Shown one piece after another: positions 1 to 21,076 of a stretch of 64,000 bases of DNA (position 1 is its first letter; each line of letters starts with the position of its first letter). The notes beneath the pieces were generated by a model. It worked only from the letters and a program-made list of their open reading frames with translations. It was not told where the DNA came from and made no database searches. The position numbers were made by a program, and so were the translations under genes. The DNA comes from Parvularcula sp. LCG005 (lineage in GTDB: Bacteria > Pseudomonadota > Alphaproteobacteria > Caulobacterales > Parvularculaceae). The stretch lies in contig NZ_CP136758.1 in assembly GCF_032930845.1 (NCBI RefSeq), forward strand, positions 1,565,001 through 1,629,000, given 5' to 3'.

Positions 1-466
1 CGAACTCGAAAAACTTCGGGTTCAGTGACGAGAACATCAGCGCGATGATGCCGAGCGAGACGAAGATTGGCGCAACCCGATCATCATCATAGAAATGCCC
101 CGCGAATGGCGCGAGGCCACACAGCAGGGTCAGAATAATCAGCCCCCGAATAAACGACATCGTGAACAGCGTGTCGAGGTGACGGCGCTCAGCGTTCCCG
201 AACCGGATGACTGCCTGCGATACACCGACATCCGACACATTCTGCAACAGCTGCATGATGGCCACGCCGATCGCCACCACCCCGAAATCCTCGGGCACGA
301 GAAGGCGCGCCAGCACCAGTGTGTTCACGAACCCGACGAGCCGCATGATAATGCGCGACGAGGCGATCCAGGCAGCGCCCTTGGCAACGCGGCGGCTCAT
401 CTGATCGTCCGCCCGGGTGTCGGTGATGTCTGGACGAACCGGTGGTTCGGGCGGCAGGTCGGTCAC
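1..466 (-). CDS. Wzx-like polysaccharide flippase (N-terminal part, cut by window edge)
   Basis: The minus-strand frame is open from a GTG at 466 to base 1, giving about 155 residues. The sequence after the ATG at 400 begins MSRRVAKGAAWIASSR and continues with long hydrophobic stretches and the phrase LVPEDFGVVAIG. This is the usual opening of the oligosaccharide-flippase (Wzx/MOP) family, inner-membrane proteins that move lipid-linked glycans to the periplasm. The GTG overlaps the stop of the upstream hydrolase gene as GTGA, which suggests translational coupling; the ATG at 400 is the alternative start and gives the more family-like N-terminus. As the last gene of the minus-strand unit, it ties the assembly-line locus to a polysaccharide pathway beyond the window. 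The family call is firm, but the substrate and the C-terminal part cannot be seen. Confidence 0.85.
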   Translation of the reverse strand, partial: MTDLPPEPPVRPDITDTRADDQMSRRVAKGAAWIASSRIIMRLVGFVNTLVLARLLVPEDFGVVAIGVAIMQLLQNVSDVGVSQAVIRFGNAERRHLDTLFTMSFIRGLIILTLLCGLAPFAGHFYDDDRVAPIFVSLGIIALMFSSLNPKFFEF

Positions 467-1299
467 GGCGCGTTACCTTTCGCGACCTGGGCCAGCCAAT
501 CACAAAGCTGACCGATGAGCTGCTGCTGCGCTGCCCGCTCTGTGTGCGTGTGGTCCACGTCCATACCTACCGACAGGGTCAGTCGCCCCGCAAAGCCGTC
601 CTCGCGAAAATTGGCAAAGAAATGCTCGGGCTTCGTCAGGTCTTCCTGCACGTAATTGGTATAACGAATGAACAACCGACCGCCGCGCTGCGCGAAGGCC
701 GACAGCCGTTCGCCAAATTCTTCTACTGGCGGGTGGACGCGATCATTGTCTTCCGAATCCACCGTTGGCGCGTTTTCCGGCGGCGGCGTCACGCCGATCA
801 CCCTGCCGATGGCTCGCCCCCAGCGGTCGGTATCGGTCGCCTTGCTGGCTATTTTATCGAGGCGGGCGCGAACAGAGCCATAGGCATACGGATCAATCAG
901 GGCGAGCCCGGTTATCCGATCGTCCGCGGCGATCGCTTCATAGGCGTGATCCGCGCCAGAGCACATGCCGTAGACAATGAGCGGCAAGCCCTCAGCGCTG
1001 GTCTGACGATTCCAGTCATCGATCGCCTGGGTGATGTCTGCGACCGCCTGCTGCTCGTGGCCGAGGCCCGGGGCGGCCGGAGCGGTGTCGCCGAGGCCGG
1101 ACAAATCCAGCCTGATACTGGCAAAGCCAATTTCGGACGCCGCTCGCGCTAGTTTGACGTGCAGCCGGTGGGGGCCGCCGCGCCCGACAATGCCGGCATT
1201 GATCAGCAAAAGTCGGCCGACCATTGGACCATCGGGCATTGTCATCGTGCCGACCAGCCGGGCATCAGGGCCAAAGGTGACGATTTTTTCCCTCACCAT
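463..1299 (-). CDS. Alpha/beta hydrolase, exosortase-A-system hydrolase 1 type
   Basis: The 278-residue protein has an alpha/beta-hydrolase layout: a central phrase IRLDLSGLGDT at about 62-72 and a nucleophile elbow at 111-115. The elbow reads GMCSG, so Cys113 sits where serine is usual. This cysteine elbow and the GIVGRGGPHR oxyanion region fit the hydrolase-1 family found with exosortase A and exopolysaccharide loci. The family's substrate is not established. The start lies inside the end of hydrolase 2 (7 bp overlap), and the stop overlaps the flippase start, so the three genes look like one operon. A role in releasing or editing an acyl group made by the neighbouring assembly line is inference. 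No exosortase or PEP-CTERM gene is visible in the window. Confidence 0.8.
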   Translation of the reverse strand: MVREKIVTFGPDARLVGTMTMPDGPMVGRLLLINAGIVGRGGPHRLHVKLARAASEIGFASIRLDLSGLGDTAPAAPGLGHEQQAVADITQAIDDWNRQTSAEGLPLIVYGMCSGADHAYEAIAADDRITGLALIDPYAYGSVRARLDKIASKATDTDRWGRAIGRVIGVTPPPENAPTVDSEDNDRVHPPVEEFGERLSAFAQRGGRLFIRYTNYVQEDLTKPEHFFANFREDGFAGRLTLSVGMDVDHTHTERAAQQQLIGQLCDWLAQVAKGNAP

Positions 1300-2069
1300 T
1301 CAGCCACCTGTCGACAGATTTCTTCGATCGTCTGCATGGGAACAAGATGGGCGTTCATCGCCTCGTCGGAGTTCCAGTCCTGCTCGGTCGGATCGAGGAT
1401 CTCATCGAACGAAGCAGACGCACTATCTGCCCAAGCGGCCAAGCCGGGGACGTCGCGCCGTCGGATGGCCAGTGTTTTGGGACGCGTCTTGCCGGTGACG
1501 GATGACAGATCCGTCTTCTCAAGCTCGGATCTGAACGAAGCTGAAAGGCCAAAGCCCAACACTTCCTCTTCGCTTGCTGGCGGTCGACCCATCATACCAC
1601 TGATCGCACGGGCATGAGCCGCTTGCATCTCCGCCAGATAGTCAGGGCCACTGACAACGGGATCCCATAGCAGGAGGCCTATGGGCCGTTCCAGCTTGAG
1701 CGCTTTCATCGCGGCGAGCGCGCCGAATCTGAGCCCGAGCCAGATGTTGCGCGACTGCCCGCTCATGTCTTCAAGCTCGATATGGGCGTCGGCGACGGAT
1801 TGCACCGCGTTGGCGAGGCTGAAATCCTCGCAATCCCCGGCTGACTCACCGCTGCAGGGATAATCAAATCGCAAGGTGGGCGACCCTTGAGCGGCCAGAC
1901 GTTCAGCCAGGACGCGCAGTAGACGGGCAGAGCGGATCCCCTCTTCCCCCCACGGCGGACAGATGACCACGCCCTTTGCCCCGCTCACACGACGCATCGG
2001 CGGGTGGTACGCCCCGTAAAGAGGTGACAGGCTTGACCCGAATTGAAACGGTGTCACGGCGATCAGCAT
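1293..2069 (-). CDS. Alpha/beta hydrolase-fold protein, exosortase-A-system hydrolase 2 type
   Basis: The 258-residue protein opens with VTPFQFGSSLSPLYGAYHPP and has VVICPPWGEE at 34-43, both typical of the second exosortase-A-associated hydrolase. The nucleophile elbow at 112-116 reads GLRFG, with Arg114 where the catalytic serine would be. LRFDYPCSGES at about 66-76 is the usual strand-turn before the elbow. The protein may therefore not be a serine hydrolase despite the fold. It is the first gene of the hydrolase-hydrolase-flippase unit and diverges from the thioesterase gene across about 110 bp. The annotated ATG has AGGA only one base upstream, so a GTG at 2057 is an alternative start. 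Function unknown. Confidence 0.75.
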   Translation of the reverse strand: MLIAVTPFQFGSSLSPLYGAYHPPMRRVSGAKGVVICPPWGEEGIRSARLLRVLAERLAAQGSPTLRFDYPCSGESAGDCEDFSLANAVQSVADAHIELEDMSGQSRNIWLGLRFGALAAMKALKLERPIGLLLWDPVVSGPDYLAEMQAAHARAISGMMGRPPASEEEVLGFGLSASFRSELEKTDLSSVTGKTRPKTLAIRRRDVPGLAAWADSASASFDEILDPTEQDWNSDEAMNAHLVPMQTIEEICRQVAEW

Positions 2070-2181: not shown

Positions 2182-2928
2182 GTGACAACGCCGCTTATTT
2201 GCCTGTCGCCCCGCCCCATGGCCAGCACGCGCCTCGTCTGCATCCCCTTTGCCGGGGCTGGCGCGAGTGTTTATCGGCGATGGGCGTCACTTCTGCCGCC
2301 CAATGTTGAACTGTTCGCCGTGCAGCTGCCGGGCCGTGAGAACCGGTTGAGCGAGCCGCCAATGACCGAGTGGGATCTGGTCGTGGCCAGTATCGCGGAT
2401 GCGCTGATCGACATGCCTTGGGGCAATTATCGCCTGTTCGGGCACAGTCTTGGGGCTCTGCTGGCGCTCGACGTCGCACGGTCGATGACAAAAAGGGGTG
2501 AAGCACAGCGCCATCTCGCGGTCAGTGGTCGCCCGTGGCCTGGATTTCATAACGATGTGCGGTCACCGATCGCCGTCGATGTCATGAGCGATGATGATGT
2601 CCTTGAAGAGCTCACCGAACGGTTCGGCCCCCTGCCCGACTCCCTGCGTGACCTAGAGATAAGAGACATTGTGATGCCCACACTGCGGGCCGACCTCCAG
2701 CTGCTGCACAATTATCGGTGGCAGTCCGATCCCGTGCTGACCGGACCCGTCACAGCATTTTACGGCCAGCAGGATCCGTCCCTGTCCAAGAGCAGCGTTG
2801 CCGGATGGGCCAAGGAGACGTCAGGGGCGTTTGCGGCGGAACCGCTGAATGGCGGCCACTACATGCTCGACCAGCAGTCAGAAGCCATCTGCCGACTGAT
2901 CGAGTTACAGATCCGTACGCAGCCTTAG
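2182..2928 (+). CDS. Type II thioesterase of the PKS/NRPS locus
   Basis: This GrsT-like external thioesterase has the family signatures in order: LVCIPFAGAGAS near the N-terminus, QLPGREN, the nucleophile elbow GHSLGAL, and the catalytic histidine in GGHYML near the C-terminus. Such enzymes hydrolyse stalled or wrong acyl groups from carrier proteins and sometimes release product. The megaenzymes here have no built-in thioesterase, so it may also do the release. I chose the GTG at 2182 because AGAAGGA lies about 10 bases upstream and the protein then starts right before the fold. The open frame extends back to an ATG at 2074, but those 36 residues look non-coding. Its 3' end overlaps the 3' end of the convergent megaenzyme gene by 4 bp. 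Confidence 0.88.
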   Translation: MTTPLICLSPRPMASTRLVCIPFAGAGASVYRRWASLLPPNVELFAVQLPGRENRLSEPPMTEWDLVVASIADALIDMPWGNYRLFGHSLGALLALDVARSMTKRGEAQRHLAVSGRPWPGFHNDVRSPIAVDVMSDDDVLEELTERFGPLPDSLRDLEIRDIVMPTLRADLQLLHNYRWQSDPVLTGPVTAFYGQQDPSLSKSSVAGWAKETSGAFAAEPLNGGHYMLDQQSEAICRLIELQIRTQP

Positions 2929-5900
2929 CTGGCTGCGGCCGCACTCTCGGCCCCCGCCGCCAACTGTTCCAGCGTTTCAAAGATGACGGCCCGGGGCGCG
3001 ATGTGGCAACCCAACTGCCGACGCACACGAACGACCATCTGCGCGGCCTGCAGGGACTGCCCCCCAAGCTCAAAGAAATTATCTGTGACCGAGATCGCCT
3101 CAACGGCCAGCATCTCGGCCCAAATATCTGCGATGGCCCGCTCAAGGTCACTGCGCGGCGGTACCGCCATCTTGTGATCGTTGGCTGCGCCCGACGGCTG
3201 CGGCAGTGAACTGCGATCGATCTTGCCATTGGCCGTCAACGGCATGTTGTTCAGCTCAACGAACAGTTGCGGCAGCATGTAATTGGGAAGGCGACGACGA
3301 AGTGCGCGGCGCAATTCACTACTGGTGGCCGACTGCCCATCGCGATAGACCGTGTACGCGATCAACATGGGCTCACCGGCCGCATCGGGACGGACGACGA
3401 CGGCCGCATTGGAAACCACGTCGCAGGCTTCAAGCGCGCTTTCAATTTCGCCCAACTCAACGCGGAAGCCGCGAAGTTTGACCTGTCCATCGTTGCGCCC
3501 CAGCACCGCCAGTTCTCCATCGGCGCGCACGTAGCCAATGTCGCCGGTGCGATAGAGGCGCGCGCCAGCCTGCCCGCTGTAACGGTCAGGCACGAAACGC
3601 TCCGCCGTCTGGGCCTCGCGATTCCAGTAGCCCTTCGCAACCACCGGTCCGCCGATCAGAATTTCACCGCGCACACCGGCGGGGCAAAGTTGGCCATCAC
3701 CATCCACAACATAGACCTGTACGTTGGGTAGGGGTGTGCCCGCCGAAATGTCCTCCGCATTCGTTATTTTTTTATAGGTCGAAAAGACTGTCGTCTCCGT
3801 CGGACCATACTCATTCCACACCACGCGAGACCGGGCGAGCAGCGCTTTGGCCAGTTCGGCGCTCAGGGCCTCTCCACCAGAGAGGACCGTCAGATCGCTT
3901 TTTCCGGTCCAGCCTGCGTCGACAAGAAGGCGCCAGAGGGACGGCGTTGCCTGCATCATCGTGGCGTCAGTGCGGTCGACCAGCGCCCCCAATACCTCAC
4001 CATCAGCCACGTCGTCATCGTTGGCGAAGGTCACCTTAGCGCCGACCATCAGCGGACCGAGCATCTCCAGCAGCGAGATGTCAAAGCTTGGGGTCGTGAC
4101 CGACAGGAAGTGATCTGCCGCCTTCAGGTCAATCCGTTTGACCACGGCATTCAGATAAGCCCTGAGCGACAGGTGACTGACATTTACGCCCTTCGGTACG
4201 CCCGTCGACCCGGAGGTGTAGATCAGATAGGCAGATTGGTCTGCCACCATGGCCTGTTGCGCCGGTGCCTTGGCCCCGTTCAGTTCGGACAGAAGAATTG
4301 TCGCAACGTTCAACAGACCGGCCCGGCTGGCGTCATTGCAGACGATCAGGCGCGCGCCGGAGTCCGCGACCATGTGATCGAGCCGGACGGCCGGATAGCT
4401 GGGGTCAAGCGGCAGATAGATCCCTCCGCAACGCCAGATCGCAAGCATTGCGATCACGACATCACCCGAGCGCTCCATCAGGACACCGACGACATCGCCC
4501 GGCCCTACCCCCTGCTCGGTCAGTCCGGCGGCAGCCGCGTCAACGGCGCTACGCAATTGCGCATATGTCATGGTGCGATCGCCCCACGCCAGGGCCTGAC
4601 GAGACCCGGCCACCCCAGCAATACAGTCGGTAATATCCGTCTGCAGCGCTTCTTCATCCGACGGACCGCGCAGAAGATGATAGGCTTTGTCTGCCGCGTC
4701 GGACGTCATCCAGGTCAGGTCTGACAATTGCGATTGCGGGGCCGCGACGAGCGCCGTCAGAATGGCCTGATACAGATCAATCCAGCTCGATATCGTGCCA
4801 TCGTCGAACAGAGCCGTCGAATAATCCCAGTCGACGATATAGCCTCCGTCCGTTTCGCTGACATTCATGAACAGCTCATAGAACACAGCCTGCCGCGGGT
4901 TTTCCATCGGCCGGACGCGGCAGTCTCCAAGATCAAGATCCCGCAGGAAACCACTATTGTTGAAGACCGCTTGGACCAGCGTCGGGCGCCCAGGCTCCCG
5001 TGGCAGGTCGAGCGCGGCGATCAGATCCATCAACGCGGGACCTGCATGATCGGTCCCGTCCATCACACAGCGGCGGACCGCCGTAACAAAGTCCTCAACC
5101 GACCGGCCTGCCGATGGCTGCAATCGCAACGGCATCATCTCGACGCCATAACCGATCGACTCCATCTGCCGGACTGCCTGTCCAGCCACGGGAACACCGA
5201 TGACAAGGTCCTCCTGACCGGTTAGGCGGGACAGAAGAATAGCGTATGCGGAGAAAAGAATCGTGTTGGCACTGACGCCCAGTTCTCGTGCGGCGGCCTT
5301 GATCTGTGGGAGCAAGCCCGGATCCAGGCGACGATGGCATGTCGCCCCGGAAAATTGCGGCATAACCGGAAAAGGCCGATCCGTGGGCAGGTGCAACGCT
5401 GCGGGCGTATCGCCCTGCAGCTGCGACAGCCAATACGCGGTCGTTTCCGCCTCGGCATCAGCGTCAGCAAGGGCGTACTGGCGGAATGGGACCAGCGCCG
5501 CGGGTTCATCTCCACGATAGAGTGCAGCGATGTGCTGCATCAACAGGTCAGCGGCATAACCATCAAAAGCAATATGGTGCGCATACAGCAGAAAATCGTG
5601 GCGATCTTTTGCGCGGCGGACGAGGAAGGCCCGCGCGAGAGGGCTGTTTTCAAGATCAAAAGGTGTCGAGGCTTGTCGTCTCGTCAATTCGCGCCAGCGG
5701 TCTTCCTGCTCATCCGGCGACATCGCACTCCAGTCGAGCAGCTCAACGTCAATCGCAGAATCCGCCTTCACCGACTGCGACGTGCCTTCAGGATCAATCG
5801 TCAGACGCAGCGCATCGGCCGCGTTGAGGGCCTGTTCTGCCGCCTGCCGAAAACGCTCCGCATCCAGCGGGCCCTCAATCGACAGACGGTCGGATTCGTT

Positions 5901-7910
5901 GAAGGCGCAATTGGCCTCGTCACTCAGCTGCGCCGTCACCCACATTTCCTGCTGCCCGGGCGTCAGGGGAAACGGCCGTTCATCGGCCACTGGAGAAACG
6001 CCGGGACGCAGCGGAAGGATATCGTCCGCCTGCATCTCCAGGATGGCAGCCTTTACCGCCGCGATGACCAGCGCCACATCTTCATCGGTGTGAGCCGCCG
6101 TCATATAGCTGGGGAAGCCCTCGAGAATATGCACGCCTCGGTCACGCAGGTGATAGAAGAAGAGCGTTGCTAGCTCGCTCTCTTCGGACACGCGGAAGAA
6201 CATTTGTGACGCGAACTGAGCGACAAAGATTTTGACACCCCGTTCTTCAAAGAAGGCATTGAGCGTATCAGCGAGGTATTTCGCCTTGGCGTTGACCCCC
6301 TGTTGCAACGCTGGCCCGGCCGCCTTCAGATAGCTCAGAGACGCGTGGACGGCGGCAATCGTCATGGGATGACGGACAAACGTCCCGGCAAAGAACGTGA
6401 CACCGGCGGTCGGTTTACTGTCATCGCCATATTGCCACATGCCGCCATCGAACGTGTCCATGAATTCAGAACGCCCCGCAACAACGCCAATGGGCATACC
6501 GCCGCCGATGATCTTGCCATAGGTCGCAAGGTCGGCCTTCACACCGTAATATTCCTGCGCCCCGCCCGGACAGGTCCGGAACCCTGTGATCACCTCGTCA
6601 AAAACGAGCACGATGCCCCGCTCTTTCGTCAGATCCCGGAGCTTATGCAGAAACTCGCGAGGCTGAAATTCGGGTCGTCGGCTCTGCACGGGTTCGACTA
6701 GAACAGCAGCGATATCGTCAGCCTCGGCTGCGATGCGTTCAAGCGCGCTGTCCTCGCCGTAGTCGCACACAATGATATTGTCGACGGACCCGAAAGGAAT
6801 GCCCGGCGCGAGCGGCAAGGTCTTTTTGGTCCCGCCCGTGCCCACGCCCCGGACCAGCACCTCATCGAAATTGCCGTGATAATCGCCCGAGAACACCACG
6901 ATCTTGTCGCGCCCTGTCACCGTCCGGCTGATCCGCATGGCGGCCTGCACGGCTTCGGATCCGGTGCTGACCCAAGACACACGGTCCATTCCTGTCAGTT
7001 CACAGAGCAGTCTTGCGGCCTCGCCCGCCTTGGGTGTCTGGGGTCCGACCTCAAACCCGTCGTCCAACTGTCCCTTCAGCGCGTCTATGATGAACGGCGC
7101 GCGGTGACCGAAGAAGTTTGGGCCGAAGCCGTTGAGCAAGTCCACATACTCATTTCCGTCGACATCCCACAGACGCGCACCCAACGACCGCTCGACAACG
7201 ATGGGATAGACGATTTCTTTCCAGCGACTGTTGAAGCCCGACGCTGTGCGCGGATCGGCGTGGTACTGACGATCCCGCTGGGTCCGCTCCTTCGATCCTT
7301 TGGTCTTCGCGTTGTAGCGTTTTGTCAGGCGATCCACATGAGCGCGCTGCACAGGGCTCAGGTCTTCACCATCGTCATTGAGCGACGGACCGAACCCTTT
7401 GGGCAGGACAGGAGCCGGTACCGCCTCTCTTGTCCGATCGGCCGCTGGCGCAACCGACGGCGCGACACGTGGCACCGGCGCTGACGACTTATGTCCTGAG
7501 AGAAGGCGGATCTGTTCCTGCATCAGCTCAAGTTGCGACCGGAACAGCGCCGCCATGGCTTCTCTGGATCCTTCTGTGATCGGCGCAGATGGGGCTGGCG
7601 GCAGAGGTCGGGGCGGCGTTTCGGCTTGCGATGTCGCGGCCTGAACCACTGGGGCTGGCGCTGGGGCTGGCAGAACGCTGTCGAGATGGTCGGCGAGCGA
7701 CGCGATGGTTGGCGCCGTGTCAATCAACTGACGAAATGTCACCTTGGTGCCCACGGCTTTCTGATAGGCGGCAGCCAACTGGGTCAGAAACAGGCTGTCG
7801 AACCCCAGCGACAGAAACGGGACATTCGGTGCTAACTCGCCAACCGGCACGCCTGACAGGTCCGACGCTGTCGCCGTCAGTTGTGCAATCAGATCATCCT
7901 TACGCGTCAT
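2925..7910 (-). CDS. Hybrid megaenzyme ACP-aminotransferase-C-A-PCP
   Basis: This 1661-residue protein has five domains. An acyl carrier domain is at 5-80, with the phosphopantetheine serine in GFDSL (Ser39). An Ala/Pro-rich linker follows to about 200. A class III PLP aminotransferase spans about 225-630, with FDEVITGF and the PLP lysine in GKIIGGG (Lys466). A condensation domain spans about 645-1085, with intact HHIAFDG at 778-784. The adenylation domain has IYTSGSTG, NEYGPTE, YRTGD and NGKID. The C-terminal carrier domain has LGGQS (Ser1619). The ACP-aminotransferase-condensation order matches the iturin/mycosubtilin type, where the beta-keto acyl group becomes beta-amino before peptide coupling. 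Reading the pocket against GrsA from memory gives D-I-L-Q-L-G-E-V-F-K, whose first six positions match the glycine code. There is no thioesterase domain. The gene starts 22 bp after KS-AT. Confidence 0.93.
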   Translation of the reverse strand: MTRKDDLIAQLTATASDLSGVPVGELAPNVPFLSLGFDSLFLTQLAAAYQKAVGTKVTFRQLIDTAPTIASLADHLDSVLPAPAPAPVVQAATSQAETPPRPLPPAPSAPITEGSREAMAALFRSQLELMQEQIRLLSGHKSSAPVPRVAPSVAPAADRTREAVPAPVLPKGFGPSLNDDGEDLSPVQRAHVDRLTKRYNAKTKGSKERTQRDRQYHADPRTASGFNSRWKEIVYPIVVERSLGARLWDVDGNEYVDLLNGFGPNFFGHRAPFIIDALKGQLDDGFEVGPQTPKAGEAARLLCELTGMDRVSWVSTGSEAVQAAMRISRTVTGRDKIVVFSGDYHGNFDEVLVRGVGTGGTKKTLPLAPGIPFGSVDNIIVCDYGEDSALERIAAEADDIAAVLVEPVQSRRPEFQPREFLHKLRDLTKERGIVLVFDEVITGFRTCPGGAQEYYGVKADLATYGKIIGGGMPIGVVAGRSEFMDTFDGGMWQYGDDSKPTAGVTFFAGTFVRHPMTIAAVHASLSYLKAAGPALQQGVNAKAKYLADTLNAFFEERGVKIFVAQFASQMFFRVSEESELATLFFYHLRDRGVHILEGFPSYMTAAHTDEDVALVIAAVKAAILEMQADDILPLRPGVSPVADERPFPLTPGQQEMWVTAQLSDEANCAFNESDRLSIEGPLDAERFRQAAEQALNAADALRLTIDPEGTSQSVKADSAIDVELLDWSAMSPDEQEDRWRELTRRQASTPFDLENSPLARAFLVRRAKDRHDFLLYAHHIAFDGYAADLLMQHIAALYRGDEPAALVPFRQYALADADAEAETTAYWLSQLQGDTPAALHLPTDRPFPVMPQFSGATCHRRLDPGLLPQIKAAARELGVSANTILFSAYAILLSRLTGQEDLVIGVPVAGQAVRQMESIGYGVEMMPLRLQPSAGRSVEDFVTAVRRCVMDGTDHAGPALMDLIAALDLPREPGRPTLVQAVFNNSGFLRDLDLGDCRVRPMENPRQAVFYELFMNVSETDGGYIVDWDYSTALFDDGTISSWIDLYQAILTALVAAPQSQLSDLTWMTSDAADKAYHLLRGPSDEEALQTDITDCIAGVAGSRQALAWGDRTMTYAQLRSAVDAAAAGLTEQGVGPGDVVGVLMERSGDVVIAMLAIWRCGGIYLPLDPSYPAVRLDHMVADSGARLIVCNDASRAGLLNVATILLSELNGAKAPAQQAMVADQSAYLIYTSGSTGVPKGVNVSHLSLRAYLNAVVKRIDLKAADHFLSVTTPSFDISLLEMLGPLMVGAKVTFANDDDVADGEVLGALVDRTDATMMQATPSLWRLLVDAGWTGKSDLTVLSGGEALSAELAKALLARSRVVWNEYGPTETTVFSTYKKITNAEDISAGTPLPNVQVYVVDGDGQLCPAGVRGEILIGGPVVAKGYWNREAQTAERFVPDRYSGQAGARLYRTGDIGYVRADGELAVLGRNDGQVKLRGFRVELGEIESALEACDVVSNAAVVVRPDAAGEPMLIAYTVYRDGQSATSSELRRALRRRLPNYMLPQLFVELNNMPLTANGKIDRSSLPQPSGAANDHKMAVPPRSDLERAIADIWAEMLAVEAISVTDNFFELGGQSLQAAQMVVRVRRQLGCHIAPRAVIFETLEQLAAGAESAAAAS

Positions 7911-7932
7911 GGTTGGTCTCCGTGAATCATGG

Positions 7933-10734
7933 TCACGATTTCAGGGCCGCGAGCTGCGCGGCGATTATTCGCAATTGAGTCTCGACAAGCTGTTCGATTG
8001 AGCCGTCGGGTGCGGCATTTGCCGGAGCGGGCATTGTCGGCGGTACAGCTTCTTGTACGGGCTGACGCGCGGGCGGATCCACCCAGTGGCGTTGCCGCTC
8101 AAACGGATAGGTCGGCAGCGGTATCCGCTGGCAGGGCGCCGTGCGCAGGTCGGACCAGTGAAGAGCCACACCCTGCCCCCACAAAGCCCCCAACGCCGCC
8201 AGCAGATGCGCTTCGTCATCGCCCGGCTCCTGCACAGGTCCGAGAACCGATACGGGCGAGAAACCGGGGCGCCGGACCGACTGACGCGCCAGGGTTGACA
8301 GCGTCTGCCCCGGACCGACCTCAACCACGATTGTGCTGGCTTCCGCCGTCGCCAGCCTGATGGCGTCGACATACCGAACCGGTGATGTGATTTGCTGTCC
8401 CCAATAGGCCGGGTCCATCATATCCTTATCGGAAAGCTGCATGCCCGTCACGGTGGAGAAAACGGGAAGTTGGGCAGGCCGCAGGTCAAGCGCGGCCACA
8501 GCCTCTTCAAAGCTCTCGCGCGCCGGCGCCATCATCGCCGAGTGAAATGCATGTGACGTCTTCAAAACCGAGAAAGCCACCTCGTCCGAGGTCAGGCGTT
8601 CGGTGAGAGCGTCCATCGCATCGGTGGGACCGCTCAGCACACAGAGGGATGGACTGTTTATCGCCGCCAGGTCAATTTCGCCGGAAATATAAGATGTTGC
8701 TTCATCCGCCGAGAGGCGGACAGCCAGCATTTTCCCTGCTGGCATCTGTTGCATCAGGCGTCCGCGGAGAGCAACGAGCCTTGCCGCAACGTCCAGATCC
8801 ATGACATTTGCCAGCACGGCGGCCGCAAATTCGCCGATACTGTGGCCGATGACAGCGTCCGGCACGATACCGCGGGCACGCATGCTGTGGGCAAGCGCGA
8901 TCTCCATGGCGAAGATGGCGGGCTGCGCCAGGCTGGTCTGCGCCAGCTGAGCCGCCGCCGCCTCACCAGAAAGTGGGCTCGTTTCGTCCCAAAGGAGAAG
9001 GCCTTTCAACGCCTTTCCCTGTTGATCCTTGCCGGACAGGCTGCCGATGACATTGTCGATCGTCGCCTTGAACACTGCATCCGCTGCATAGTGCTGCCGA
9101 GCCATGCCAGGGTACTGCACCCCCTGCCCCGGAAACTGGAACAACAAGCCGGGAGAACTGGCGACGGGCTTGTGTATCGGCGTCTCCATCCGTAGGCGTT
9201 CTATTGCTTCGGCAGGTGATCTGGCGACGATGGCCGTGCGCTGTTCAAATTGCCGGCGGCCAACCTGCAAGGTGTGTGAGACGTCGTCGAGACGAAGCTG
9301 CGGATTTGCTTCCAGATACGCAGCCAGACGTAATTTCTGTTGGGCCAGCGCCGTATCCGTCCGCGCGGACAGAACGAGAATCTGCGGCTCCTCGCGCACG
9401 GCCCTCTCGGCGGCCGTTGGCGCACTCTCAATCACGACATGGGCGTTGGTGCCGCCAACCCCGAAGGACGAGACGGCGGCGCGACGCGGCTCCTGCGCCG
9501 CCGGCCAAGGGTTCAGCGCGGTGTTGACGTAAAAGGGCGTTGCCTCAAAATCGATATTCGGGTTCGGCCCTGCATAATGGATTTGCGGCGGCAGCACGCC
9601 TTCATGGACGCTGAGGCTGGTTTTGATCAGGCCGATGGCGCCGGACGCTGCATCAAGATGACCCAGATTGGCCTTCACCGATCCGATGGCGCAATATTGC
9701 CGGTCGTCCGTATCCCGCCGATAAGCAGTCGTCAGCCCGGCGATCTCGATGGGGTCGCCCAATGGGGTCGCCGTGCCGTGCGCCTCGACATAGCCAATGG
9801 ATCGGGCATCGATCTCGCCCAGCCCCATGGCCAGCGAAATGACCTCTGCCTGCCCCTCGACGCTGGGTGCAGTATAACTGACCTTCGTGCCGCCATCATT
9901 ATTGGTGCCATAGCCGCGAATGACAGCGTAGATGGTGTTGCCGTCGGCGATCGCGTCTTCAACCCGCTTGAGCAGAAGAACCGCCGCACCATTGCTGAAG
10001 ACCGTCCCTGCGGCATCGCTTGAAAATGTGCGGCACGTCCCATCGGGGGAGAGCATGCCGCCCTCCTTGTAGAAATAGCCTCGCTTCTGGGGCAGTACGA
10101 TCGTTACGCCCCCCGCGAGCGCCATGTCGCAGCCATAGGTGTCGAGCGCCTGACAGGCGGAGGCAATTGCCACCAGCGATGTCGAACAGGCCGTCTGTAT
10201 CGTCATGGCAGGGCCGCGGAGGCCCATTTTGAATGCGACCCGAGTGGCGAGATAGTCCTTGTCGTTGCCCAGTTCGGTCTGCAGCGTGCCCACCTGGATA
10301 TTGTCGATCAGGTCCCGCCTGAATTTTTCATCGGCACACAGATTGTTGATGAGATAGGTGTCCATGTAACAGCCGGCATAGACACCGACAGCACCATCAT
10401 AGCGCGCGGCGTCATGACCCGCATGCTCCATCGCCTCCCAGCAGATTTCGAGGAAGACGCGATGCTGGGGATCCATGACTTCCGCTTCGCGCGGCAGATA
10501 GCCAAAGAAACGCGCATCGAACTTGTCGATGTCGTCGAGCACCCCCTTGGCACGGACAAACTGTCCATCCCCCTCACCAGCGGGCTGCGGAATCTCCAGC
10601 TCCTCGGGCTCGAAATGGCTGATCGTATCCTTACCGGCTTTGATGTTTTCCCAGAACGTCGCCACGTCCTGCGCACCGGGAAACCGGCCCGCCATGCCCA
10701 CAATGGCAATGCCGCTCTGTGCTGTATCCGTCAT
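7933..10734 (-). CDS. Polyketide synthase KS-AT didomain
   Basis: The 933-residue protein is a type I ketosynthase at 8-430 and acyltransferase at about 525-860. The ketosynthase triad is intact: Cys183 in TACSTS, His319 in EAHGTAT and His359 in NLGHLD. The acyltransferase has GQG near 536, the nucleophile Ser632 in GHSIGEF, and HAFH near 735, the signature for malonyl-CoA rather than methylmalonyl-CoA. There are no ketoreductase, dehydratase or carrier domains. It should therefore add one C2 unit without reduction and hand the beta-keto chain to the ACP at the N-terminus of the next protein. The last 30 residues form a possible docking helix. The ATG start overlaps the FkbH-ACP stop by 4 bp. 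Confidence 0.95.
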   Translation of the reverse strand: MTDTAQSGIAIVGMAGRFPGAQDVATFWENIKAGKDTISHFEPEELEIPQPAGEGDGQFVRAKGVLDDIDKFDARFFGYLPREAEVMDPQHRVFLEICWEAMEHAGHDAARYDGAVGVYAGCYMDTYLINNLCADEKFRRDLIDNIQVGTLQTELGNDKDYLATRVAFKMGLRGPAMTIQTACSTSLVAIASACQALDTYGCDMALAGGVTIVLPQKRGYFYKEGGMLSPDGTCRTFSSDAAGTVFSNGAAVLLLKRVEDAIADGNTIYAVIRGYGTNNDGGTKVSYTAPSVEGQAEVISLAMGLGEIDARSIGYVEAHGTATPLGDPIEIAGLTTAYRRDTDDRQYCAIGSVKANLGHLDAASGAIGLIKTSLSVHEGVLPPQIHYAGPNPNIDFEATPFYVNTALNPWPAAQEPRRAAVSSFGVGGTNAHVVIESAPTAAERAVREEPQILVLSARTDTALAQQKLRLAAYLEANPQLRLDDVSHTLQVGRRQFEQRTAIVARSPAEAIERLRMETPIHKPVASSPGLLFQFPGQGVQYPGMARQHYAADAVFKATIDNVIGSLSGKDQQGKALKGLLLWDETSPLSGEAAAAQLAQTSLAQPAIFAMEIALAHSMRARGIVPDAVIGHSIGEFAAAVLANVMDLDVAARLVALRGRLMQQMPAGKMLAVRLSADEATSYISGEIDLAAINSPSLCVLSGPTDAMDALTERLTSDEVAFSVLKTSHAFHSAMMAPARESFEEAVAALDLRPAQLPVFSTVTGMQLSDKDMMDPAYWGQQITSPVRYVDAIRLATAEASTIVVEVGPGQTLSTLARQSVRRPGFSPVSVLGPVQEPGDDEAHLLAALGALWGQGVALHWSDLRTAPCQRIPLPTYPFERQRHWVDPPARQPVQEAVPPTMPAPANAAPDGSIEQLVETQLRIIAAQLAALKS

Positions 10735-12740
10735 GACACCTCCCGCAGGGTTCGACGCCGTGCCGCAAGGCGGCTGGTCGATTGCCTGACGCGTTCAGCC
10801 CGGTGGCTTGCCGGTTGTTCCGGATGCCCGCCCTGGGTCAGCGCATTGACCAATTCTTCGACGGTGGAATAGCGGAACAGGCTGGTAATTTCGACAGGCC
10901 GGCCCAACCATTTGACGAGGCCCGCCTGGACTTGGAGCAGCTGGATAGACCGTCCGCCAAGTTCCGTGAAAGAATCCCGCACACCGATTGGCCGTATACG
11001 CAGCACATCCTCCCAGATCGCGGTGACAACCGACATGGCACCTGGCCCCGGAGCGACATAGCCGTGCTGAAAAGTTGGTCGGGGACGATAAGCGGCGGCC
11101 ATGGCCTCAACGATCGCATGACCGGTGGTCATCTCATTGGCGATCCAGTCGTAAATATCAGGGGGCGCCCCGCCTTCATAGATTGGCGCGCTCATGTCCG
11201 TCACCGGCACCGCCTGCCCCGGCTCAAACCGGCAGTCCAAAGCCATCTCCTGTGACAGACTGTATTGATCCTCTGCGCTGCTATTGGACCAGGCCGCCAA
11301 AAAGCGGCGAACCGGCGTGTTGCGCGGGCCCTCGACGGCGACAATGACGATCTCGTTCAGACCGGCGTCAGCAGCACACTGGCCCAACAGGGTCAGCATC
11401 TGGTGTTCAACACCGCGCCCAAGAGCACGACAGCTCAGCAGGAACAGGTCACATAGAAAACTGTCCTGCTTGGCCCGACCGCCGACCACACCGACAAGTC
11501 CGTAGTCGCCGAACCGGTCGCGGACCGTGACCGTGTACAGAAAATCAGTATTGCTGGCCTGGCGGGAAGAAATGTCCGCTTCACTGCACCGGATCAGGCT
11601 GGCGTTGAACTGGTTCGTCCGTTCCGTAAGTTGCGCGATGCGAGGGCAATCGGTGGCCATCGCCGGTTCAATGATAATATCGAGCTCAAGCGTCTCAAAA
11701 AAATCTGATAGTGACGGCGCGGCGGTCATTGCCGCCTGTCGCTTGGTCTCCTGCCTGTAGCGATCGGTTCGCCGCTCATCTTCTTCCGTGACGGGGACGG
11801 GATCGAGTGGCCACACATGCCGCGCAAAGGCGGGCTCTCCTTCTGGCACGGTGACACTCATCACACCGGGCAAAGCGGCCCGCATGGCAGCGATTTCTAC
11901 CGGATTGTCGTCGAGAAACAGGACCGCATCCTGACCCACACCAAACCGGCTCAGGCCTTCGGCCAGATTATCCGGCTTGGCCTGCCAGTCTGCGCGGATA
12001 TCAAGAAAATCGTCGCTGCGAAGAGCGAAATCCGTACGCTGACGGAAGATGTCGTCGATGTCAGAACGATCGTTCTTCGTACACAGCGACAGGATGCGGC
12101 CCTGCGCCGCGTTTTCCCGCAATGTGCTCTGCAGCGCTGAATCCTGTGGCGACAAACGCACGCCGTTGGCCCCATCCTCACCAAGCACACCTCGCCAGAG
12201 GGTCTGGTCGGCATCCACTGCGATCATCTTCAACGGCGGACGCCGCAACCGATCGAGCCAGCGCGCAATGCCGGTCCCGAGGACCGCCATTGCCTCCGGG
12301 GTGTAGGGGACATGCCCAGCCTCATCAGCCATCGGGTCTGCTACCTGATCGACACCGTAAGCCGTCATCAGCTCCGCCACATTGATCGCCTCAACGCCGT
12401 CTGGCCAAGCCTCAATATCGGGCATGCTTCCATCGGCTTCAGGACACAGGAGAAGGGCAAGGGGCTTTTCCTGGCCGACGTTCGACAGGACGGAATACAA
12501 TACGTCGCGATCATTCCCAATGTCGGAGAGCCGCACGAGCACGACGCGCGGGCCCGCATGTTGCGCGAGCAGGCCCTGCGGGTTCAGCCCATCGGCCAGC
12601 AACTGACCATAGGGCACAGCGATCGCGCCATCGGGCAGCACCAGTTTGCGTCGCCAGAAATCGATCGCCTCGAGCACCGGCTCCACCGTAAAGGTCGCCG
12701 CAATTACAGGCGCCGCGATTGATGTCTTTGCTGCAGCCAC
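10731..12740 (-). CDS. FkbH-like HAD domain with C-terminal carrier domain
   Basis: This 669-residue protein carries an FkbH-type HAD-IIIC domain. The HAD motif DADQT (Asp176, Asp178) is followed by LWRGVLGEDG, then LCTKN near 220 and LFLDDNP near 275, all usual for the family. The phrase AGHVPYTPEA before it is typical of the long PKS-associated forms. A GNAT-like stretch follows, and a carrier domain lies at about 585-645 with LGGRS (Ser598). FkbH domains take the C3 unit of 1,3-bisphosphoglycerate, remove phosphate and load glyceryl onto a carrier protein. Here the starter would be carried in cis. It is the first gene of the minus-strand operon. The GTG start has AGAGGGA about 8-14 bases upstream. 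Confidence 0.9.
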   Translation of the reverse strand: MAAAKTSIAAPVIAATFTVEPVLEAIDFWRRKLVLPDGAIAVPYGQLLADGLNPQGLLAQHAGPRVVLVRLSDIGNDRDVLYSVLSNVGQEKPLALLLCPEADGSMPDIEAWPDGVEAINVAELMTAYGVDQVADPMADEAGHVPYTPEAMAVLGTGIARWLDRLRRPPLKMIAVDADQTLWRGVLGEDGANGVRLSPQDSALQSTLRENAAQGRILSLCTKNDRSDIDDIFRQRTDFALRSDDFLDIRADWQAKPDNLAEGLSRFGVGQDAVLFLDDNPVEIAAMRAALPGVMSVTVPEGEPAFARHVWPLDPVPVTEEDERRTDRYRQETKRQAAMTAAPSLSDFFETLELDIIIEPAMATDCPRIAQLTERTNQFNASLIRCSEADISSRQASNTDFLYTVTVRDRFGDYGLVGVVGGRAKQDSFLCDLFLLSCRALGRGVEHQMLTLLGQCAADAGLNEIVIVAVEGPRNTPVRRFLAAWSNSSAEDQYSLSQEMALDCRFEPGQAVPVTDMSAPIYEGGAPPDIYDWIANEMTTGHAIVEAMAAAYRPRPTFQHGYVAPGPGAMSVVTAIWEDVLRIRPIGVRDSFTELGGRSIQLLQVQAGLVKWLGRPVEITSLFRYSTVEELVNALTQGGHPEQPASHRAERVRQSTSRLAARRRTLREVS

Positions 12741-13142
12741 CGAATGCTGTCCCTCTGCCCTAGCCTATTGCCCTCTGGTGCAATCCGCGCGCCGACTGAA
12801 GCAGAATTTTCGAAAAAGTGCACCAGATACGGGAACTTGGCCTCAACGTTAACACGAGTGGGCTCCGCTTTGCGCCAAATGCGTGCGTCACGTGACGCGA
12901 CAGGATAAGGTAGCAAGAGTCTCCTCACACCCGAAAAACGACTTTGTCAATATACATCAATGGCTTATAGCGCCCGCCTCCGCAACGACCTCCTCAACCG
13001 GCGAACCAGAAGCCGTATTAAAGACGTGGTTGACGGCAAGGCCCGGCGCCAAAGCTTAAGTCGCATTAATCCTACAATATAACCAGACTTCAAGACACGT
13101 GCGGTAGACCGTTTGTATTGAAGAGGAATGGGGAGCGGCTTT
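12741..13142. other. Divergent intergenic region between the biosynthetic operon and the GGDEF gene
   Basis: About 400 bp without a credible gene, and visibly more A+T-rich than its surroundings between 12900 and 13127. It must hold the promoters for the minus-strand assembly-line operon and the plus-strand diguanylate cyclase. I see a 14-bp palindrome at 12885-12898 and a weak plus-strand promoter candidate: TTGTCA at 12944-12949, a 16-base spacer and TATAGC at 12966-12971. A minus-strand TTGACA at 12945-12950 has no convincing -10 partner. AT-rich TACAATATAAC near 13074-13084 could be part of a second promoter for the GGDEF gene. I see no RNA gene here. Confidence 0.5.
12885..12898. promoter_or_regulatory. 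Perfect 14-bp palindrome, candidate operator
   Basis: The bases GCGTCACGTGACGC read the same on both strands, with CACGTG at the centre. The site lies 145 bp upstream of the FkbH start and 245 bp upstream of the diguanylate cyclase start, in the region both genes share. A dimeric regulator site is the natural reading, but no regulator gene is nearby in the window. Confidence 0.4.
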
Positions 13143-14216
13143 GTGATTACGTATCCAATGCCACGGTTTGAACAGCAGAAAATCGAAGTTCTACAACGCT
13201 ACAAGATCCTTGATGGATCGAAAGAATACGACACCAGCCACATACCACGGACGGTATCCCTCGTATTCGACATGCCCATGGTCATTGTCGCGCTGAATGA
13301 GCGCTACCGGAAGTGGTTCAAGTCATCCTGCAACATGACCGACGAACAGCACGACATTCTGCAAGGGTTCTGTGCCCACGCTCAGTTGTCGGACGCGGCG
13401 TTTTGCGTCGAAGATGCACGCGATGAAGAATATTTTGCTCGCGAAGAGGCCGTCCAGGGCGACCCTAATGTCGTCTTTTTCGCTGGCGCCCCGCTGCGCA
13501 ATCCGGACGGAATTCGGTTCGGGACACTCTGCCTGATTGATCAGCGTCCCCGCACGCTCGACGCGATGCAGATGAACATTCTGAACAGTTTTGCGGCCAT
13601 GTTGTCACAGGATATCTGCCTGCGCAGTGCTGGTCGTTACGCTTTGGCGGATCTGATCGAAACGGAAAAAGACAAAAGTGATCTGTACGGCCTCGCCATG
13701 ACGGATTCACTTACCGGCGCCCTTAATCGCCGTGCGTTCTTCCGCTTCAGCGAACGCGAGATGAGCCGGACACGTCGGTATAATCTCGACATGTGCGTGA
13801 TGATGCTGGACATCGACTTTTTCAAGAAGGTCAATGACGTGCACGGCCACAATGCCGGCGACATGGTGTTGAGTAAATTCGTCAAGACGCTGATCGACAC
13901 CGTCCGGGACGAGGACCTGGTGGGACGTCTTGGTGGTGAGGAATTTGCCATCGTCATTCCTGAGACCAGCAAGGAGCGCGCTGGCGCCCTCGCCGACCGT
14001 ATCCGAAACAACGTGAAGGCCATGCGCTTCAACGGCGATGGCGGCAATTTCTCCATTTCCGTCAGTATCGGGATCAGTGAACCTGCCATCAATGAGACCG
14101 ATATAGATCCGTCACTCGAGCGCGCCGACAAGGCTTTGTACGAGGCCAAACGCGCCGGCAGGGACCGGGTGGTGCTGGCGGACACGCCGCGACGCCTCAT
14201 CGCCCTGGAGGCCTGA
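13143..14216 (+). CDS. GAF-domain diguanylate cyclase
   Basis: The protein makes the second messenger c-di-GMP from two GTP. The first ~165 residues resemble a GAF sensor domain (LQRYKILDGS at the start, FAGAPLRNPDG and GTLCLID near its end). The C-terminal ~170 residues are a GGDEF domain with the active-site motif GGEEF, DSLTGALNRR at its start, and an RDED inhibitory I-site five residues before GGEEF, so it should be active and product-inhibited. No signal peptide or membrane segment is seen, so it is probably cytosolic. I prefer the GTG at 13143 because GGGGAG lies 7 bases upstream; the ATG at 13128 has AGGA directly against it. It diverges from the biosynthetic operon, and c-di-GMP commonly controls surface polysaccharides. 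The ligand is unknown. Confidence 0.92.
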   Translation: MITYPMPRFEQQKIEVLQRYKILDGSKEYDTSHIPRTVSLVFDMPMVIVALNERYRKWFKSSCNMTDEQHDILQGFCAHAQLSDAAFCVEDARDEEYFAREEAVQGDPNVVFFAGAPLRNPDGIRFGTLCLIDQRPRTLDAMQMNILNSFAAMLSQDICLRSAGRYALADLIETEKDKSDLYGLAMTDSLTGALNRRAFFRFSEREMSRTRRYNLDMCVMMLDIDFFKKVNDVHGHNAGDMVLSKFVKTLIDTVRDEDLVGRLGGEEFAIVIPETSKERAGALADRIRNNVKAMRFNGDGGNFSISVSIGISEPAINETDIDPSLERADKALYEAKRAGRDRVVLADTPRRLIALEA

Positions 14217-14274: not shown

Positions 14275-17200
14275 CTACTGGCGCATGAGGTCCAGCGTGG
14301 TGGGGTATTCTTCGCTACGGATCGGTTCGTAGATATGGAACGGCCCCGGCGTGTGCCCTATTCTTTCGAACCGGGCGCGACGACGACCTTCAGCTTCCAG
14401 CGAATTGACCGGACGGAATTCGAAATTCCGGCCACCCGGGTGGGTCGCGTGGTAGGTACAGCCTCCGACGGAACGACCAGCAGCCCGATCGACAATGTCA
14501 AAGATCAGTGGCGCGTGCGGTTGGATCGTGGGGTGCAGCGCCGATGATGGCAGCCAGGTGCGGAAGCGGACCCCCGCGACACGCTGATCGGACCGCTCCG
14601 TGTCATGCAGCGGCACGCGGTATCCGTTGCAGGACACATCGAATCGGTCAGCGAAATCACCCGTCACCTTGACCTGCAGTCTTTCGACAGAACTGTCGAC
14701 AAACCGTGCCGTACCGGTGGCCGACCCCTCCTCGCCAAGAACAGGCCAGCATTCGAGACCCGCCCGCAATTCGAGATCGACACCGCCATGGCGGATCGTG
14801 CCGTAATGAGGGAAGCGGAATTCGAACTGCGCATCATACCAGGACGGATCAAGACGAACGCCAAGCCCGGTCGACACTTCGTCCAGCACCGCATTCAGAT
14901 CTGCCCGGAGATAATAGGGCAGCATGAACCGGTCATGCAGTGCCGTGCCGAACCGATTGAGTGGCCGGGTGTACGGATTTTTCCAGAACCAGGCGATCAG
15001 TGCCCGCAGGATCAGCTGCTGCGCGAGGTTCATGTCCTCATGCGGCGGCATCTCAAATGCCCGGAATTCGACCAGGCCGAGACGGCCTGTAGGACCATCC
15101 GGGCTGTACAATTTGTCGATACAGATTTCCGCGCGGTGCGTGTTGCCAGCAACATCCACCAGCAGGTTCCGGAACAGACGGTCGACCAGCCATGGCGGGC
15201 ATTCACCGCCCATCGCCTTTTCGGGATGCGGCAGTTTGCTGAGCGCAATATCAAGGTCGTAGAGTGCGCTCTCACGTCCCTCATCGACACGCGGTGCCTG
15301 GCTCGTCGGGCCGATAAACATGCCCGAGAAGAAATAGGACAGGGACGGATGGTTCTGCCAGTATCGGATCAGGGATCCGAGCACGTCCGGCCGGCGCAGG
15401 AACGGGCTGTCGCTGGGCGTTGCGCCGCCGACAACCACGTGCGCCCCGCCGCCAGAGCCTGTCGGGCGACCATCGAGCATGAATTTCGATGCCTCAAGGC
15501 CGCATTTTTCAGCCTCTTCATAGACAGCCCGGGTGATATCCACCTGTTCAGCCCAATTGTGGGCAGGCTGAATATTCACCTCGATCACGCCGGGATCCGG
15601 TGTCACCTTGATGACGTTCAGACGCGGGTCGTCGGGCGGCGGATAGCCTTCGATCTGAATCGCGATGCCGGTCCGCAACGCGGTTTCTTCAAGCGCGTTG
15701 ACAATATCAATATACTCATCGGCAGTCGCCGTTGGCGGCATGAACGCACACAGAATACCATTGCGCGGCTCGACCGTCAGGGCCGTGCGCACAGCGGGAC
15801 CCGCCGAGAACGGTCCGCCGGGCAAGGCGGCGTTGGTGTTCACGCCCGGCTCCTCGATGGGCACCAGCGGAATGTCGAACTCACCGGCCTGTGCGTTTGA
15901 GATGGGCCGGTCTTCCCAATGGTGGATCTTCGTCGGCAGCTGTTCACGCGGTGCAAACGGGTCAAGCGGGATGATTTCCGGCCGCTGATTTTTCGGCAGA
16001 TGCGCAAGAGACTGGAGCGGCAAACGGAAACCGGCGGGACTGTCACCGGGCATCAGGAAGAGACGCTGGCGACGGGTCTGCCATTTTTCACTCTGCCAGC
16101 GGAATTTCCGTTTACGGGCGAGCTGTTTCATCTCTTTGGATGCCCGCGCCGGGGCCTGGGCCAGCTGCAATGGCAGGATAAAGGCGGCTGGGCTCTCGAG
16201 ACCGCGATCGAAGACGCGCGCCAACCGGGTACGCGTTTCAACGTCGTCGAGCTTGTTGTCGATAGGATCGACATTTGGCGCGAGCTTCTGCTCGCGCAAC
16301 ATGAACTCGGCAGGATCTTCAAAGGCTGGCGTGGCGTAATCCGCTTCCAGCCCGAGGCTTTCAGCCAGACCTTCGGCAAACAGCTGCGCCTGATCGATTG
16401 TTGCGTTCTTTGGCTGGTCCTCACGCGCGATCATCTCGGGCGCTTCCCAGGTCGGCTCTCCATCAGTGCGCCAGTACAGTGCAAAGGCCCAGCGGGGCAG
16501 GCTTTCGCCGGGATACCATTTGCCCTGCCCGTGATGCAGGAATCCATTCGGTGCAAATCGCTCCTGCAGGCGGCGCAGATATCTGTCGGCAAACGCTCGT
16601 TTCGTGGGGCCAACCGCGTCGATATTCCACTCGCCGGCATCCCGGTCGGTGGTGGCCACGAAAGTGGGCTCGCCGCCCAGGGTGAGACGGACGTCTTCGC
16701 GGTTCAGTATCTCGTCAATCGCGGCGCCTGCGTTGATGACGGCTTCGACCTGCCCTTCATCAAGCGGCTTGGTGACCCGCGGTGTTTCGAGAACCCGCGA
16801 CACTTTCATGTCGAAGTGAAGTTTCGCCTCGGCCTTTTCTGTAGCGCCACTGATCGGCGCGGCACTTGACGGTTTTGGCGTGGCCGCCAGCGGAATATGC
16901 CCCTCACTGGCGAACAGGCCTGACGTCGGGTCGAGACCGATCCAGCCTGCACCCGGTGCGTAGACTTCGGCCCAGGCATGCAGATCGGTGAAATCTTCTT
17001 CGGGGCCTGATGGGCCTTCGAGGCTCTTCCGGTCGGCTTTCAGCTGGATCAGATAGCCGGAGACGAAACGGGCGGCGAGGCCAAGCTCGCGCAACACGGC
17101 CACGAGCAGCCACCCGGAATCGCGGCACGAGCCGGTCCCGATGGACAGCGTCTCCTCAGGGGTCTGCACGCCCGGTTCCATGCGAACGGTATAGCCCACT

Positions 17201-17700: not shown

Positions 17701-17715
17701 AAACGTCCCTTTTCA

Positions 17716-17730
17716 CCCCCTATATGGGGG
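17716..17730. repeat. Short inverted repeat in the Anbu-system divergent promoter region
   Basis: CCCCC and GGGGG flank TATAT, 16 bp upstream of the transglutaminase start, within 126 bp shared with the ATP-grasp gene. It could be an operator or merely occlude the transglutaminase leader. No clear -35/-10 pair could be assigned on either strand. Confidence 0.3.
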
Positions 17731-17826
17731 CGATTAGAATTTTTTGCCAGCTATTGACGCGACGCAACAACCTGCGCTCAGCTTGCCTTAATAGCTTGTG
17801 GCTTATATCCACACTATAAAGATGGA

Positions 17827-20258: not shown

Positions 20259-20344
20259 AACAAATCATTTATTGCAAACAGTAGTGGTCTTGCGCTTGCC
20301 TGCGGTCTAGATAGCGGTTTCGATATAACCCCACTGAGGATCCC

Positions 20345-21076
20345 GTGACCTATTGTGTTGCCCTCCGGCTCAAGGCCGGACTTGTCATGCTGTCCGATAC
20401 CCGCACCAATGCCGGTATCGACAGCGTTTCAAAATTCAGAAAAATGTTTACTTGGTGCGTGCCCGGAGAAAGAGCCCTGTGCCTCATGACGGCCGGCAAC
20501 CTCTCCATCACCCAGTCGGTCATCACCACACTGCAGGAACAGATCGACGATCCGAACTTTGTCGGTGACACCATGCTGACGGCCCCAAGCCTGTACCGGG
20601 CGGCCGAAATCCTGGCGCAAGCGATGCGCGACGTCATGGCGAAATACGCCGAAGGCATCAATTCCGCAGGCGAGAATTCCGGCGCCAGCATTATTCTTGC
20701 CGGTCAGCGCAAGGGCGGCAAATTGCGGCTCTATATGATCTATTCGGCAGGCAATTTCATTGAAGCATCCGAAGATACGCCCTTCTTCCAGATCGGCGGC
20801 TTCAAATACGGCAAGCCGATTCTCGACCGCGTGGTGACCGAGGAAACCTCGCTCGAGGACGGCAAGACCGCCGCCATGCTGTCCATGGACAGCACACTGC
20901 GATCAAATCTGGCCGTGGGCATGCCGCTTGATCTCTGCGTGATCCCGACCAGCAAATACGAGCTGTCAGAATATCGCCGGATTGAAGCCGAAGACCCGAA
21001 CTTCCGCGCCCTGTCCGAAGCGTGGTCTCAGGAACTCCGAGACAGTTTCGTCAAGATGCGGGCCATGCCCAAGTAG
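20345..21076 (+). CDS. Anbu, bacterial proteasome-type peptidase
   Basis: The 243-residue protein is the ancestral-beta-subunit (Anbu) proteasome homologue. It starts Met-Thr-Tyr-Cys-Val-Ala, so removal of Met exposes the N-terminal threonine nucleophile without a propeptide. It has LSDTRTNAG at 16-24 and lysines in SKFRKMF at 29-35, which fit the Ntn-hydrolase active site. Anbu is known to assemble into ring-like oligomers in the cytosol; its substrates are unclear. The GTG start has GAGG 6 bases upstream. The gene follows the ATP-grasp and alpha-E genes in the same direction, completing the usual four-gene neighbourhood, and ends at a strong terminator. Confidence 0.93.
   Translation: MTYCVALRLKAGLVMLSDTRTNAGIDSVSKFRKMFTWCVPGERALCLMTAGNLSITQSVITTLQEQIDDPNFVGDTMLTAPSLYRAAEILAQAMRDVMAKYAEGINSAGENSGASIILAGQRKGGKLRLYMIYSAGNFIEASEDTPFFQIGGFKYGKPILDRVVTEETSLEDGKTAAMLSMDSTLRSNLAVGMPLDLCVIPTSKYELSEYRRIEAEDPNFRALSEAWSQELRDSFVKMRAMPK

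Follow-up and report, generated by a model that had tools for sequence, protein, structure and literature searches.

Gene organization of the locus

The window analyzed here is a stretch of 64,000 nt from Parvularcula sp. LCG005 (assembly GCF_032930845.1, NZ_CP136758.1, positions 1,565,001–1,629,000), which encodes three core open reading frames that are arranged head to tail on the minus strand, the FkbH and KS-AT genes overlapping by 4 bases (Table 1). The first of these in assembly-line order, the FkbH-like loader, scored 271.9 bits against TIGR01686 (cut-off 146.65) and bears its carrier in cis. The KS motifs (TACSTS, EAHGTATPLGDP and GSVKANLGH) and AT motifs (GHSIG and HAFHS, which together we take to denote a malonyl-type AT) of the second protein are intact, and no KR, DH, or ER families were listed for it by Pfam profiles. 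The third protein contains two PP-binding domains, Aminotran_3, Condensation, and AMP-binding by Pfam and NCBIfam profiles, in the order PP-binding, Aminotran_3, Condensation, AMP-binding, PP-binding, with recognizable motifs for the ACP (GFDSL), the aminotransferase or AMT (YGKIIGGGMP), the C domain (HHIAFDG), and the PCP (LGGQSL). Both the AMT lysine motif and the C-domain HHxxxDG are kept in all 11 rows of an alignment of the window and its relatives; among the KS-AT proteins, the pattern HAFHS had no match in relative G053, and EAHGT.T.LGDP had none in relative G048.

Against solved structures, the window AMT was closest to 6kfm, the MycA AMT (422.5 bits, E 1.5e-125), with the next different protein, glutamate semialdehyde aminomutase, at 201.1 bits; by this similarity, we class the aminotransferase with that of mycosubtilin (MycA). 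The initial annotation had described three genes making one complete short line, consisting of an FkbH protein with its carrier, a single malonyl-type KS-AT, and an ACP-aminotransferase-C-A-PCP protein whose aminotransferase is of the beta-amino type, and the profile scores, domain order, and intact motifs agree with that description throughout. A profile search of the genome found one condensation domain, so the line looks self-contained, and an Sfp-like PPTase is encoded elsewhere in the genome, outside the block. Beside the FkbH gene lies a GAF-GGDEF diguanylate cyclase (13128–14216), with a related gene near the G053 block. Positions 14275–21076 hold in tandem a DUF2126/transglutaminase protein, a circularly permuted ATP-grasp, Alpha-E, and a proteasome-subunit-like protein, presumably the gene set found with the Anbu proteasome-like protease.

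Table 1 Core genes and adjoining conserved genes, with positions in the window.
Feature	Length	Positions	Strand	Evidence
FkbH-like HAD loading domain with C-terminal carrier (residues 571–634)	669 aa	10731–12740	-	TIGR01686, PF00550
KS-AT, malonyl-type AT motif, without reductive domains	933 aa	7933–10734	-	PF00109/PF02801/PF00698, motifs
ACP - class III aminotransferase (MycA type) - C - A - PCP	1661 aa	2925–7910	-	Pfam, motifs, pocket
TE, stand-alone thioesterase (GHSLG)		2209–2928	+	PF00975, 133.9 bits
HYD2, alpha/beta-hydrolase-like (GLRFG)		1293–2069	-	TIGR03101, 66.3 bits, below cut-off 202.75
HYD1, alpha/beta hydrolase (GMCSG)		463–1299	-	TIGR03100, 63.4 bits, below cut-off 168.45
Flippase, polysaccharide-transporter type, N-terminal part		1–466	-	PF13440/PF01943

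A conserved block with putative release and export genes

We compared 11 neighbourhoods, those of ten Parvularculaceae relatives and the window itself. The flippase, HYD1, the KS-AT, and the ACP-AMT-C protein each occur in all 11, FkbH in 10 (the contig of the eleventh starts inside FkbH), HYD2 in 10, and TE in 6. Since the block is kept in every neighbourhood and a long match spanning ACP-AMT-C is present in 13 of 62 Parvularculaceae genomes, the window's included (counted from rows), the three-gene set is not a chance arrangement. The conserved unit is larger than three genes, extending to TE, HYD2, HYD1, and the flippase; the initial annotation, which took the three genes for the complete set, thus had the core line whole but omitted the conserved release and export genes left of position 2925. 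A PPTase lies in the block of eight of the ten relatives; the window block has none, and in one of the two remaining relatives the block is cut by its contig end. No gene outside the block was common to all 11 neighbourhoods, and neighbours beyond it recurred only in smaller sets (four genomes from a single genus; G048 and G049; G015 and G024; the window and G053).

The flippase is cut by the window edge: the whole protein has 513 aa (G000:C1:1563925–1565466), running 1,076 bases to the left of the window, and was recovered as a complete ORF at L003:14925–16466. TE is convergent with the NRPS gene, overlapping it by 4 bases, and its ORF start could lie as early as 2074. In alignments, the Cys at the nucleophile place of HYD1 and its His are invariant in 11 of 11 sequences (C113, D136, and H250 in 9 of 9), and HYD2 has neither Ser nor Cys at that place in 10 of 10. 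A structural model of HYD1 has the alpha/beta hydrolase fold (mean pLDDT 83.3); the fold search was unspecific, returning a generic alpha/beta hydrolase, and we rejected a functional assignment on that basis. With TE unseen in 5 of the 11 blocks, HYD1 seems the stronger choice for the final transfer step, and its conservation and nucleophile-place Cys make it a candidate transacylase or release enzyme.

The NRPS part varies in layout. An unsplit ACP-AMT-C-A-PCP protein occurs in 3 of the 11 neighbourhoods, including the window's; two others have three genes (ACP-AMT-C, A-PCP, and C-A-PCP), in which both A domains are glycine-type; and the remaining six (L105 (=G036), L107 (=G041), L113 (=G038), L115 (=G049), G039, and G048, the last recognized by eye and the other five by motif) have an ACP-AMT-C-PCP followed by a C-A-PCP. 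The ACP-AMT-C-PCP protein of these six has no A domain, and one glycine-type A domain may serve two carriers.

With core motifs mapped to the PheA numbering, the window A pocket reads DILQLGEVFK. Most Parvularculaceae relatives have DILQLGMVWK or DVLQLGMVWK, which we take to be glycine-type pockets, and the window pocket shares 7 of 10 positions with the code DILQLGLIWK. The same method yields well-known codes in relatives (DFWNIGMVHK and DAFWLGGTFK). Glycine is nevertheless an uncertain call for the window, because E and F stand where most relatives have M and W; the pocket appears glycine-like but atypical, and the substrate is probably glycine or another small residue.

Relatives across phyla and the KS clade

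Scanning a species-level collection yielded 331 pattern matches, of which 258 encode a relative of the ACP-AMT-C-A-PCP protein; the locus counts given here cover the best 80 of these 258. By domain profiles, the loader in these 80 is FkbH in 17, A-T in 33, and not assignable in 30, many of which end at contig ends. Lines of the KS-AT-ACP-AMT-C-A-PCP type occur in several phyla among the best 80 of 258, and the window line is thus no one-off but a member of a widespread family of short lines. Six Verrucomicrobia (L060, L073, L081, L092, L099, and L120) encode FkbH-T-KS-AT-T-AMT-C-A-T as one protein, and two more (L100 and L123) spread the same domain order over two; the single-protein lines support the FkbH, KS-AT, ACP-AMT-C-A-PCP order in which the window genes had been placed in the initial annotation. 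In four Rhodobacterales (L076, L095, L097, and L112), the line is a one-protein A-T-KS-AT-T-AMT-C-A-T of ~3450–3500 aa with varied pocket codes. The genomes of L059, L090, and L106 (G062, G066, and G067) encode an FkbH protein (frames of 611–645 aa) on a contig without the AMT line; the AMT lines of L059 and L106 have an A-T loader, and none was seen for L090.

Evolutionarily, the KS separates by loader. A tree of 52 rows, comprising 20 FkbH-line KS (17 of 17 FkbH loci plus the window, G053, and G024) and 32 of the 33 A-T loci (L094 was omitted, its KS being split over two matches), placed all 20 FkbH-line KS on one side of a 100/99 branch and all 32 A-T-loaded KS outside, with one loader label change against a shuffled mean of 16.0. 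The FkbH-line clade includes Verrucomicrobiota, Pseudomonadota, and one Acidobacteriota row, and the A-T-loaded KS come from the same three phyla and others. Because the FkbH-line KS form one clade across three phyla, the tree suggests that the KS tracks loader type.

Proposed pathway

Taken together, we think it reasonably likely that the locus encodes a self-contained, FkbH-initiated PKS-NRPS line in which a glyceryl start is followed by one malonyl extension, beta-transamination, addition of one amino acid, and release and export; the probable product of its enzymes is a small acid with amino and hydroxy groups, linked to a single glycine-like amino acid. The FkbH family loads a glyceryl unit derived from phosphoglycerate, and the window protein would accordingly be expected, as a family member, to put such a unit onto its own carrier. 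The KS-AT, by its domain content, would extend the glyceryl unit once with malonyl, and the beta-keto group would be kept because the protein has no reductive domain. On the ACP, the AMT, by analogy with its strong relative MycA, would then make 3-amino-4,5-dihydroxypentanoyl, which the C domain would join to one A-loaded amino acid, probably glycine or another small residue. HYD1 would most likely free the chain or hand it to an acceptor, with HYD2 as a helper and TE as a proof-reader, and the flippase would carry the product or a conjugate of it across the membrane. The steps from loading to C-domain joining are well backed by the anatomy of the line, and we infer those of release and export.

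Fate of the product and alternative readings

What becomes of the chain can be read in two ways, both of which bear on the polysaccharide-type genes found around the wider family. The flanks of the best 80 of 258 loci, 753.8 kb in all, contained 94 such genes, spread over 40 of the 80 loci. The control sequence, 673.7 kb in 36 stretches (16 + 20), contained 7, from 3 of the stretches; the 16 loci with genomes requested for controls, of which 14 gave control stretches, had 14 genes in 211.4 kb (7 of 16 loci). These counts rest on flank profiles seeded from the loci themselves, and those for L079 and L086, where the ORF caller gave no core, include the cores as flank. Because of this seeding, we repeated the comparison with Pfam on random samples of ORFs, drawing 111 from the 393 eligible in flanks and 106 from the 346 in controls, in which Polysacc_synt had 10 flank members (at least four of these ten flippases come from related Parvularculaceae blocks and are non-independent), PPTase 10, Glycos_transf_1 5, Glycos_transf_2 5, and Bac_transf 4, with at most one of each in the control (families absent from the 25 listed, which go down to one member). 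Sugar-nucleotide epimerase-type families numbered two in flanks and two in control.

One reading is that TE or HYD1 hydrolyses an aminodihydroxypentanoyl dipeptide, which the flippase exports as a free secreted metabolite with no glycan or lipid acceptor, a plausible outcome but to our minds a somewhat improbable one. It is favored by the genes closest to the line: profile searches found neither a glycosyltransferase nor a chain-length gene by the block in the window, where the only glycosyltransferase-profile match is distant (52204–53253), and no glycosyltransferase lies within the block in any of the 11 neighbourhoods. Consistent with it are also the C-terminal thioesterase fused to the line in L060 and L076 and the six of eight Verrucomicrobial FkbH loci without polysaccharide-type flank genes. 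However, the families that the transporter matches (PF13440 and PF01943) are those of polysaccharide transporters, HYD1 and the flippase are universal in the 11 blocks whereas TE goes unseen in 5, and polysaccharide genes are abundant around the lines of the wider family.

In the other reading, HYD1 passes the peptidyl unit on to an amine or hydroxyl group of a sugar, and the resulting lipid-linked conjugate is moved by the flippase, a possibility that we take seriously while leaning against it. The flank enrichment and its Pfam counterpart argue for it, and glycosyltransferase or chain-length genes are present beside many other AMT lines. A flippase tree of a chosen set (21 line-associated and 18 other rows) also points this way: the 11 line-associated rows from Parvularculaceae group together (100/99), as do those from five Acidobacteria (100/100), and the two clades stand apart, which would fit repeated recruitment. 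A single origin of line-associated flippases is unsupported; L053, L121, L068, L114, and L108 belong to neither main clade. Near the line itself, the next gene selected past the flippase in G053 encodes a group 1 glycosyltransferase, but this and a weak family 2 match in G048 are the only two such matches in the 11 neighbourhoods. Against it, too, 7 of the 14 flank matches in 18 FkbH loci (17 plus the truncated L113) are the block's own flippase, and since 80 of the 94 matches belong to lines with other or unassigned loaders, the enrichment comes mostly from those. Finally, the distant kinship of HYD1 and HYD2 with exosortase-A-associated hydrolases led us to expect an exosortase link, but the two exosortase matches of the genome lie ~61 kb from the FkbH gene, on its right side, and at 2.98 Mb, no block-profile match was found in 40 kb around the latter or 20 kb around the former, and we rejected a physical link. 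Given the enrichment of polysaccharide and flippase genes around the wider family, the product may be a glycan decoration or be carried along with a glycan, with several results pointing the other way.

It is quite improbable that the FkbH protein uses a different C3 unit (a lactyl-like or modified glyceryl group), so that the acyl part differs from 3-amino-4,5-dihydroxypentanoyl. Some FkbH-like domains are known to hand over other units, and residues around the FkbH motifs vary among relatives; the Cys of the window CTKN motif is not conserved and was dropped as a covalent site. Yet the TIGR01686 score is well above its cut-off, the HAD DxD (DADQTLW in the window) and S/TKN motifs are kept in all 27 aligned rows (23 distinct, four genomes being counted twice), and Pfam profiles detected no domain for methylation or dehydration in any of the core proteins. 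An iturin-like, fatty acyl-started synthetase was rejected, as the three core proteins have no fatty acyl-AMP ligase starter and their sole AMP-binding domain is the A of C-A-PCP.

Returning to the glyceryl-started line, a broader proposal, tentative and in our estimation unlikely, is that minimal KS-AT-ACP-AMT-C-A-PCP lines across phyla make beta-amino acyl-peptidyl groups for surface glycans, with the starter swapped between amino acid and glycerate, and that the glycerate version of Parvularculaceae would be attached to a lipid-linked sugar by means of a Cys-type transacylase and a flippase. If true, PKS-NRPS lines would provide a general route to the decoration of glycans.

Comparison with known systems

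The hydrolase pair resembles the exosortase A-associated hydrolases TIGR03100/TIGR03101 in being two alpha/beta hydrolases with detectable similarity, but both scores fall far under the cut-offs (Table 1), and there is no exosortase near the window block. The microcystin McyE-type module has the same ACP-AMT-C-A-PCP order as the window, which differs in its starter, in having no C-methyltransferase, and in being a short stand-alone line. MycA of mycosubtilin starts from a fatty acid, whereas the window has an FkbH loader and a line that ends after one amino acid. The two share an AMT at the PKS-NRPS border and, for the window by prediction, the conversion of a beta-keto into a beta-amino group on an ACP, the MycA domain transferring the amine from Gln onto the ACP-bound beta-ketothioester according to PMC3870968. 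FkbH brings in glycerate in the vioprolide, cystomanamide, and corramycin lines, and cystomanamide also contains a beta-amino acyl group (PMC8949500, PMC9581180, and PMC10099666). In those long lines, FkbH forms the second or fourth module and follows a C domain, unlike the window, where FkbH is the first loader of a KS-AT-AMT module in a short line.

The initial annotation did not recognize the set as a described pathway, and among the open-access matches listed we likewise found no description of an FkbH starter and a beta-aminotransferase module as a whole short line. Each domain is known, and it is their union, an FkbH loader with an AMT module in one short line, that is apparently undescribed within those matches. 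The system matters because its KS clade is tied to the loader across three phyla, because the line is short enough for in vitro rebuilding, and because a connection of assembly-line chemistry with surface polysaccharide loci can be tested with it in bacteria that have received little study.
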